Below, one piece after another: positions 42,181-44,715 of a stretch of 64,000 bases of DNA. The DNA lies in the NCBI GenBank assembly GCA_002937505.1, contig PTJY01000004.1:1-64000 (forward strand). Direction: 5' to 3'. This DNA is from Alphaproteobacteria bacterium MarineAlpha12_Bin1. Its GTDB lineage: Bacteria; Pseudomonadota; Alphaproteobacteria; UBA6615. Below the pieces are notes generated by a model. The model had not been told where the DNA came from, searched no databases, and saw only the letters and a program-made list of their open reading frames with translations. The position numbers and the translations under genes were made by a program. The stretch's first letter is position 1. Every line of letters begins with the position of its first letter.

Positions 42181-42882
42181 TTATAAATTTAGAAAGCAGC
42201 TATAGCGCCATCTTGTTATCGTTATACTTTGAAAAACGCCTGCTTTAGTAAATGGTTCCGAAGCCACTAACTTTTTGGCTGCCTTCATGTCCTCTACTTC
42301 TATTAGAAATAAACTGCCTATCAAATCAATTCCGTCATCACTTCTTAAAGGGCCATGAGCAAAATACTTATCTATAATCTGTCCCTGATAATAGTGATGA
42401 GCCTCTGATGTTTTAGCTCGAAGATCAGTGATTTTATTTTTGTCTAGGCATTCACATACAAACAATTGCATTTGATGGTTAGGTGAACGGTCGCCAAATC
42501 GGTTTTTGTTGCTACTAATAAATCTATAAATTTCTATTTTTTCAATTAGCCCTAAATTATAATATTCGTCTTTTTTTAAAAAATTCTCGACTGAACTACG
42601 ATCTGGCATATTCATTATGTACATAATTCCTATTTCTTCAAAACCATCTTCGGAGAGAAGCGGGCCCACGAATTGGATGTCGTTAAGTGATGATTTTATA
42701 TTTAACTCATGGCTAGTAGACGCCTTTGCTAATAAATCCTTTGATTCACGCTTATAAATACACTTTGCATAAAATTGAGTGGGCTGAGATAAATAATAGT
42801 TTTTTAAGTCTTCGCCTGATAGACCGAAACGGGGGTCTTCAGGTCTGTATCCGTGAGGATTATGTGCCCTATTAGAAATCAT
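42181..42882 (-). CDS. Double YciI-domain protein
   Basis: 233 residues made of a 35-residue leader and two YciI-type ferredoxin-like domains. Domain one (about 36-120) has FYAKCIYKRESKDLLAKAS, SHELNI, FVGPLLSEDGFEEIGIMYI and LIEKIEIYRF; domain two (about 138-228) repeats the order: LFVCECLDKNKITDLRAKTS, EAHHYY, FAHGPLRSDDGIDLIGSLFL and VFQSITITRW. YciI proteins are usually single-domain and work as dimers, so a fusion gives a built-in pseudo-dimer. The family is thought to include lyases or dehydrochlorinase-like enzymes using a His-Asp pair; both domains keep a His. Eighteen bases behind the GST gene. Confidence 0.85.
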   Translation of the reverse strand: MISNRAHNPHGYRPEDPRFGLSGEDLKNYYLSQPTQFYAKCIYKRESKDLLAKASTSHELNIKSSLNDIQFVGPLLSEDGFEEIGIMYIMNMPDRSSVENFLKKDEYYNLGLIEKIEIYRFISSNKNRFGDRSPNHQMQLFVCECLDKNKITDLRAKTSEAHHYYQGQIIDKYFAHGPLRSDDGIDLIGSLFLIEVEDMKAAKKLVASEPFTKAGVFQSITITRWRYSCFLNL

Positions 42883-42900: not shown

Positions 42901-43593
42901 TTATTCTGCCGCTATGTTTGAATCTTTGATAAATGAACCGGCATAAGTTTTTCTGCGTATTAGAGAGGCAAAAAATTCTTCCTCAAAATTATCTGGTACA
43001 GCCAAAACAACTCTTTCATCGGAAAGGAGATTATCGGCCCAAGAGTCAGTATAAGGGAAATCCTTTAAGACTTTATTATTCAGTAATTTATCGATAAGCC
43101 TATATCTTTGCAGGAAAGGAGCATATGCTGCGTCTACCAAACAGAGTTTTTTCCCGTTAAAAAATGGACCGTGCTCATCTCGGTTTATCAATGCTCCCTC
43201 TATTTTTTCGAGAGCCTTATGGGCATTTAGTATGGCTTCATTCATCTCATCTAGGTTCTTTGAATAACCTATAGCTCCAAGTGCTTTGGCAAATTGGGGC
43301 ACGAAATCAGTCCAGGCTCGGTTATGAGCTTTTTTTATGGGATCCATTGGATGTAATTGTGGAGGAACTACTTCATCTAGATATTCGGCAATAGCGTTTG
43401 ATTCAAATAGAACTTTATCTTCCACTATTAGTAACGGTACTTTACCATGGGGAGAAATATCTAAAAACCATTTGGGTTTATCCAGTAAATTTATATATGT
43501 TACGTCAAATTGAACTTTCTTCGCACGCATTATGATCACGGCGCGCTGCACCCAAGGTCAGGTGAAGGAGCTAACAAGGTGGTATTTAGTCAT
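42901..43593 (-). CDS. Glutathione S-transferase family, probable selenoprotein (in-frame UGA at 43560-43558)
   Basis: Read from the ATG at 43593-43591 (AAAGGA eight bases ahead) the product is 230 residues with one internal UGA as codon 12: MTKYHLVSSFT-U-PWVQRAV. Bacterial GSTs of this type read LVSxxLCPYVQRAV or CPWVQRA, so UGA replaces exactly the catalytic Cys of the CPxV motif. The rest is intact: ISPHGKVPLLIVED (cis-Pro and glutathione site), FESNAIAEYLDE, and a helical C-terminal domain with LVDAAYAPFLQRY. Without readthrough only a GTG start at 43551 remains, which would delete strand beta1 and the active site. A hairpin downstream of the UGA fits a bacterial SECIS. Selenocysteine is the best reading; a nonsense mutation or base-call error is the alternative. 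Middle gene of TauD, GST, YciI. Confidence 0.82.
43523..43546 (-). promoter_or_regulatory. Candidate bacterial SECIS hairpin of the GST gene
   Basis: On the minus strand GCGCGC (43546-43541) pairs with GCGUGC (43528-43523), six pairs including one G-U, around a 12-base loop CGUGAUCAUAAU. The stem starts 11 bases and the loop 17 bases after the UGA, and the second loop base is G. Bacterial SECIS elements are small stem-loops just behind the UGA with a G in the first two loop positions. CUU (43556-43554) and AAG (43521-43519) could extend the stem beyond an internal loop. Coding constraints alone could also give such a hairpin. Confidence 0.55.
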
Positions 43594-43674
43594 AATTAAT
43601 TTCCTTTAATTTAGAATAAAATCGAAACCATAGCTTTCTTTGAAACGTGAGTTAAAATAACTCCGAAATTCACA

Positions 43675-44715
43675 TTACATTTGTTTTTTGGGAATACCTC
43701 CTTTTCTTACCCAGTTGTAACGCTCATCAAGTAGATGAGATAAAGGTCTTCTTTCTTTGTCCTTCAAGCCTATCCACATTCTCATTAGGTGTCTTTTACT
43801 ATTTTTCTCATCATCTATGAAGGACGAGCGTCCATGCAAGGTTCTATGATTACTTAGAAACTGCATGTCTCCTTCTTTCAGTACCATTTTGAGTCTTAAC
43901 TCTGGTCTTTGAGCCACCTGTTGAGCGAAGTCAATTGCTTCAAGTTGTTTTTTTGTTGCTGCTAGAAATTTTCCGTGGCGCGTTACCATTTGTATAAACC
44001 TACGACTAGTTATACGCGATGTAATTTTTCCTTCTGAAACACTGAACATTGGCATCGAATACCAAGGGTCAGTGCCATCTGGTTCTTCACCCGCCCAGTC
44101 AATATTAATTGGTTGATATAGGGCTTCTAGGTAGTCAGCACGTTCAGCTAGTATGACATTATGTAAGGTTTCGGCACTTACCACATAACTCTCACCACCG
44201 CTTTTTGCAGTTCTAGAACAGAAGAGTCCTAATATATCTACGGGCATAAGATCACAATGAAAATCCATTTTACTAGATGTTTGATATGGACGGGCATTAG
44301 GGTCGTTAATATCGCGGCCCTCATCGCGAACATGTCCCAATAAATGACCTCTTGAATTTTGCGATATTGGGGTGCCAATTTGGATGCAAATGCCCCAATA
44401 AATAATCTCACAGTCTGTATCACTGTATTTATCGCGGGGAAGTCCACGTAGTAGCACGATGCCAACACCCTGGCTAATTGAGTTAACCAAAGACCTTATT
44501 TTTTTGCGTAAGTTAGGTATATCAAAAGAACTGCTTGGAAATGGTATTTTAATCTTCGATTCCTTGATTAAACTTAAAGCGGATTCTATTTCATTAACAT
44601 CATCCTCATCAAGAATCATTACCCAGCTCTGGTTGTTTTGGATTTCTGGACCTAGCCAAGCTCCAGGGCCAGTTATCTCCTCAGTTATCATTTCTATATC
44701 CATCATATATCCCAA
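43675..44715 (-). CDS. TauD/TfdA-family Fe(II)/2-oxoglutarate dioxygenase
   Basis: 346 residues. Fe ligands His153 and Asp155 (DFHCDLMPVD) and distal His294 in SNHRTLHGRSSF; the Arg about 13 residues on (RHLMRMWIGL) binds 2-oxoglutarate. GVGIVLLRGLP and GTPISQNSRGHLLGHVRDEG are typical of the clavaminate-synthase/TauD-like group, not of taurine-specific TauD. Likely hydroxylates a small amine, sulfonate or ether. First of three minus-strand genes (with the selenoprotein-like GST and double YciI) and 76 bases downstream of a beta-hydroxyacid dehydrogenase. A start at Met4 or Met5 is possible. Confidence 0.9.
   Translation of the reverse strand: MGYMMDIEMITEEITGPGAWLGPEIQNNQSWVMILDEDDVNEIESALSLIKESKIKIPFPSSSFDIPNLRKKIRSLVNSISQGVGIVLLRGLPRDKYSDTDCEIIYWGICIQIGTPISQNSRGHLLGHVRDEGRDINDPNARPYQTSSKMDFHCDLMPVDILGLFCSRTAKSGGESYVVSAETLHNVILAERADYLEALYQPINIDWAGEEPDGTDPWYSMPMFSVSEGKITSRITSRRFIQMVTRHGKFLAATKKQLEAIDFAQQVAQRPELRLKMVLKEGDMQFLSNHRTLHGRSSFIDDEKNSKRHLMRMWIGLKDKERRPLSHLLDERYNWVRKGGIPKKQM

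Follow-up and report, generated by a model that had tools for sequence, protein, structure and literature searches.

A predicted alphaproteobacterial selenoprotein of the glutathione transferase superfamily with UGA at the catalytic cysteine codon

The catalytic cysteine of Omega-class glutathione transferases (GSTs), Cys32, forms a mixed disulfide with glutathione (GSH). Predicted GSTs with selenocysteine (Sec) at a conserved cysteine position have appeared in selenoprotein lists for two decades with no function assigned. The Sargasso Sea survey of 2005 named 'Glutathione S-transferase' among its new selenoproteins (COG0625, 4 sequences; PMC1088965), the GOS survey of 2008 included a GST selenoprotein family of 12 sequences (PMC2398784), and reviews of 2022 and 2026 repeat the listing (PMC9312934, PMC13188914), the later one describing the functions of such selenoprotein families as largely uncharacterised (PMC13188914). 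Engineered seleno-GSTs have peroxidase activity (PMC9944854), and none of the papers searched describes a biochemically studied natural seleno-GST.

The window, which is the whole 64,000-nucleotide stretch of alphaproteobacterial DNA analysed here, contains a gene that, judged from its sequence, almost certainly encodes a bacterial selenoprotein that belongs to the cytosolic GST superfamily (hereafter Sec-GST). A conserved reading frame with an in-frame UGA, the Sec machinery and homologues with Cys at the UGA position were all found. The gene, its signals and its two neighbours are arranged as follows.

42901..43593, minus strand: Sec-GST coding sequence, 230 residues with Sec at residue 12 and a TAA stop, translated with TGA readthrough
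43558..43560, minus strand: UGA codon (codon 12) predicted to be read as selenocysteine; TGA in 32 of 32 orthologues, TGC or TGT in 5 near homologues
43602..43607, minus strand: AAAGGA ribosome-binding site, seen in the sequence 8 nt 5' of the ATG at 43593
43523..43546, minus strand: predicted bacterial SECIS hairpin with a 6-bp stem (43546-43541 / 43528-43523) and a 12-nt loop, GUG at 43539-43537
42181..42882, minus strand: double YciI-domain protein (Pfam YCII), 18 nt downstream of Sec-GST
43675..44715, minus strand: TauD/TfdA-type dioxygenase (Pfam TauD), upstream of Sec-GST

Translated from 43593 to 42901 on the minus strand, the gene gives MTKYHLVSSFT, the TGA and then 218 residues, beginning with PWVQRAV, up to the TAA. 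The single TGA is the sole interruption of an otherwise undamaged 230-residue GST frame, and the Pfam domains GST_N, GST_N_2 and GST_N_3 span it (residues 4–76). With TGA taken as a stop, gene calling begins at GTG 43551 (codon 15) and gives a protein of 216 residues that has neither strand 1 nor the catalytic position. In most relatives codon 15 is GTC, GTA or GTT, and a start at this codon is therefore an artefact. Standard gene callers would lose the first 14 residues of Sec-GST, the active site included. The initial annotation, made from the sequence alone, had described a UGA at the very codon of a GST catalytic Cys, with good GST sequence, an ATG and AAAGGA on its 5' side and an intact protein on its 3' side. 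All of this was borne out: the codon at 43560-43558 aligns with the catalytic Cys of Omega GSTs, the GST_N matches cross it, AAAGGA (43607-43602) precedes the ATG by eight bases, and the codons on both sides of the TGA are constrained, as described below.

We searched 60 relatives, 385 genomes from the class and 15 from another order and obtained 32 distinct genes, the window's included, with TGA at codon 12 and 53–89% protein identity to the window. These genes come from at least five alphaproteobacterial families (groups f1, f12, f68, f81 and f96), and an ALOHA alphaproteobacterial MAG (JAKUPN010000009, 89% identity) is among the nearest relatives, which assigns the window to this class. The closest relatives that carry a name are Alphaproteobacteria of the open ocean. 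Five near homologues (L052-L056; groups f57, f104 and f113), which are 41–46% identical to the window protein, have TGC or TGT at the position of the UGA. A quick tree places the 32 Sec rows together in a single group beside the Cys rows, with moderate support only (SH-aLRT 88). Comparison of 15 sister pairs gives a dN/dS of 0.16 in the ten codons 5' of the TGA, which are under purifying selection, and of 0.12 in codons +15 to +90; these values on either side of the TGA speak against both an unrelated leader peptide and a pseudogene. Two of the checks named in the initial annotation came out in its favour: the sister genomes keep the TGA without frame damage, and homologues have Cys at its codon. 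No relative was found in viral contigs, and plasmids gave no near copy, all matches being below 60% identity and the five listed lying at 37–38%. In one genome (G018, L021:2107-2157) an extra base near codon 3 (ATGACCGACCAAATAT) seems to shift the frame at the start of Sec-GST, perhaps through an assembly error or use of another start.

The RNA 3' of the UGA is predicted to fold as GCGCGC-(CGUGAUCAUAAU)-GCGUGC. This hairpin comes right after the UGA and has a G in its apical loop, as looked for in a bacterial SECIS element. The hairpin claimed to begin 11 bases after the UGA exists, with its arms at 43546-43541 and 43528-43523, but its stability is not above that of shuffled sequences. The folding energy is ordinary against dinucleotide shuffles and marginal against synonymous-codon shuffles (z of −1.94 for the gene itself, mean of −0.42 over the 32 genes), and energy was rejected as proof of a SECIS because it is not significant against the shuffles. 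RNAalifold found no compensatory pairs in the hairpin in the orthologue alignment, in which the 6-bp stem pairs in 94% of cells without covariation; energy and covariation thus add no independent support. Constraint on the sequence is evident in the codons. Synonymous change in codons +1 to +14 is 0.20, about 40% of the rate measured further downstream (0.50); upstream it is 0.42. Codons +6 (GCC) and +7 (GTG), which sit at the predicted loop, are the only single-codon columns among 92 degenerate columns with a conserved residue in the 32 genes, and the hairpin arms and loop hold four (+5, +6, +7 and +11) of the five columns under the strongest constraint. In the Cys homologues codon +7 (codon 19) encodes alanine and is variable, and the downstream codons show no constraint. 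Some lineages (L026, L049-L051) adopt another pairing register with the GUG still in the loop. Given the ordinary energy and the absence of compensatory changes, the SECIS call is based on sequence constraint and not on folding, and it is conservation that marks the hairpin region as more than chance.

The initial annotation had named selA, selB, selC (tRNA-Sec) and selD as the genes to look for, and all are present in the genome (2.34 Mb in 12 contigs, with an estimated completeness of 100%). One tRNA-Sec scores above the Rfam cut-off (C5:175053-175144, 72.1 bits), and ARAGORN identifies the same tRNA as tRNA-Sec with the anticodon TCA (UCA). Profile searches detected SelA (TIGR00474, 592 bits) and SelB (TIGR00475, 465 bits), the ATG of selB overlapping the end of selA. 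SelD is fused C-terminal to a pyridine nucleotide-disulfide oxidoreductase domain (L010:11114-13402, plus strand; TIGR03169/TIGR00476). A PrdB/GrdB-like second selenoprotein of 410 residues is encoded outside the window on contig C5 of the same genome (G000; L010:13432-14664, minus strand, TGA readthrough), between selD and a Cys-form GST and near the tRNA-Sec gene. It has the UxxC motif VPVUPQC with Sec at residue 154, and standard ORF calling splits it into pieces of 153 and 223 aa. The machinery and the second selenoprotein together indicate that this genome has a genuine Sec trait, used by more than one gene. The adjoining Cys-form GST (SSATCPFAQR; L010:14773-15495, minus strand) is a distant paralogue of Sec-GST with ~35% identity.

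The selenoproteome search covered named stretches and family searches and is hence incomplete. Within it, a Sec-formate dehydrogenase, sought as a reason for the Sec system, was represented by a remote homologue only, without any TGA, and a search for SelW/Rdx gave none. In the class sample SelA occurs in 11 of 12 genomes with Sec-GST versus 45 of 373 others (Fisher exact 3e-9, with relatedness ignored); the exception, G034, a genome of 77% completeness, bears the TGA without a detected SelA. Each of the five Cys-form genomes (L052-L056) carries selA, which means that loss of selA does not explain the Sec/Cys difference.

A single TGA breaks the standard frame, which is what a nonsense mutation in a pseudogene or a one-base assembly error would produce. 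Such an origin is exceedingly improbable, as TGA occupies this codon in 32 genomes, even where protein identity is as low as 53%, purifying selection acts on both sides of it, and the genome has Sec machinery; conservation of the TGA refutes the pseudogene reading. Translation might instead begin after the TGA, at the GTG of codon 15, where ORF callers would place the start (43551), or at codon 19, which is GTG in 32 of 32 genes, the upstream part then being a leader or nothing. However, codon 15 is no start codon in most relatives, and a start at codon 19 would remove the catalytic site and a strand 1 that is conserved (dN/dS 0.16) and homologous to that of GSTs. The Cys homologues, moreover, have alanine codons and not GTG at codon 19, leaving an internal start very improbable.

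An in-frame TGA alone does not tell which residue is inserted, and a changed code or a suppressor could place another amino acid, such as Trp or Cys, at this site. TGA does terminate other genes of the window, however, with no homologous extension beyond it, and the tRNA with the TCA anticodon is tRNA-Sec, accompanied by a full SelA/B/D set. In relatives the residue at this position is Cys rather than Trp. Insertion of a residue other than Sec is thus highly improbable, and the predicted decoding of the UGA as Sec is strongly supported.

An AlphaFold model with Cys in place of Sec (pLDDT 90.5, pTM 0.88) adopts the GST fold, with a strand at residues 4–9, a helix at residues 13–24 and residue 12 at the helix start. 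The nearest solved folds identified by Foldseek are plant Tau and human Omega GSTs (TM about 0.8), and profile alignment matches residue 12 to the Cys of the C-P-F motif in Omega GSTs. The protein combines the GST_N thioredoxin-like domain with a helical C-terminal domain, the arrangement of the cytosolic GST superfamily; GST_C_2 scores just below the cut-off (23.1 versus 24.9 bits). The position aligned with the Omega catalytic Cys, before helix 1, is filled by the predicted Sec. The family alignment contains no other invariant Cys and the motif is UxxV, not UxxC, which makes a mono-selenol, GSH-resolved cycle the most likely one. On this basis we lean towards Sec-GST acting as a GSH-dependent mono-selenol reductase or transferase.

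In the proposed mechanism, SelB with Sec-tRNA(Sec), on the hairpin just 3' of the UGA, would direct the ribosome to insert Sec at residue 12. Sec12 would then lie at the N-terminal end of helix 1, in the place of the Omega Cys that forms the mixed disulfide with GSH. The selenolate may attack an oxidised or electrophilic substrate (a disulfide, a dehydroascorbate-like compound, a peroxide or a halo-aromatic), and the selenyl sulfide would be resolved by GSH. By analogy with the engineered seleno-GST peroxidases, peroxide reduction is a fair candidate activity.

The GST selenoproteins of the Sargasso Sea and GOS surveys likewise belong to the GST superfamily, have Sec for a conserved Cys, are marine bacterial and were predicted from Sec/Cys pairs. 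They are metagenome sequences without whole-genome setting, machinery or neighbours, and are likened to Sec-GST by family and annotation, not by sequence. The initial annotation had mentioned GST selenoproteins from marine metagenomes, correctly in view of these 4 and 12 sequences. Its phrase 'probable new selenoprotein' stands for the selenoprotein, given the UGA in 32 genomes and the Sec machinery, but not for its novelty, because the listings (PMC1088965, PMC2398784) mean that this is not a new family. What is new here are the genomes, the SECIS evidence, the Sec/Cys pairs and a conserved GST–YciI pair in one family.

Among Cys enzymes, the Omega GST (GSTO1, PDB 1eem), DHAR, Lambda and TDR1 proteins share the fold, the catalytic residue before helix 1 and the pattern C/U-P-x-x-x-R, whereas the window protein has Sec and ~25% identity to them. 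The Cys orthologues from other Alphaproteobacteria (L052-L056) have the motif TCPWV[QH]RA and genomes with selA, but a TGC or TGT codon. Engineered seleno-GSTs also carry Sec where the GST fold binds GSH, through an artificial Ser to Sec change, while that of the window protein would be natural (PMC9944854). With full-length genes, matched Sec/Cys orthologues, a gene partner and the hairpin, it becomes possible to test why a GST uses selenium.

The gene partner, encoding the double YciI protein, lies directly 3' of Sec-GST in 15 of 16 genomes of the family that have Sec-GST. It is probably co-transcribed with Sec-GST, and its product probably acts in the same pathway. Other families with Sec-GST have different neighbours and lack the double YciI pairing, which is thus a trait of the family and not of the enzyme. 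It is conceivable, though rather unlikely, that the mono-selenol GST and the double YciI protein together perform a GSH-dependent reduction or dehalogenation not described before, in which selenium is kept for kinetic reasons, with sister lineages in selenium-using genomes running the same enzyme on Cys. The setting of TauD-type dioxygenase, GST and double YciI that had been highlighted at this locus is conserved in part: the YciI gene is kept in the family, but within the 1.5-kb flanks TauD is found upstream in only four relatives (L011, L012, L014 and L019). Genes for 3-hydroxyisobutyrate-type dehydrogenases occur near Sec-GST, within the same flanks, in several genomes.
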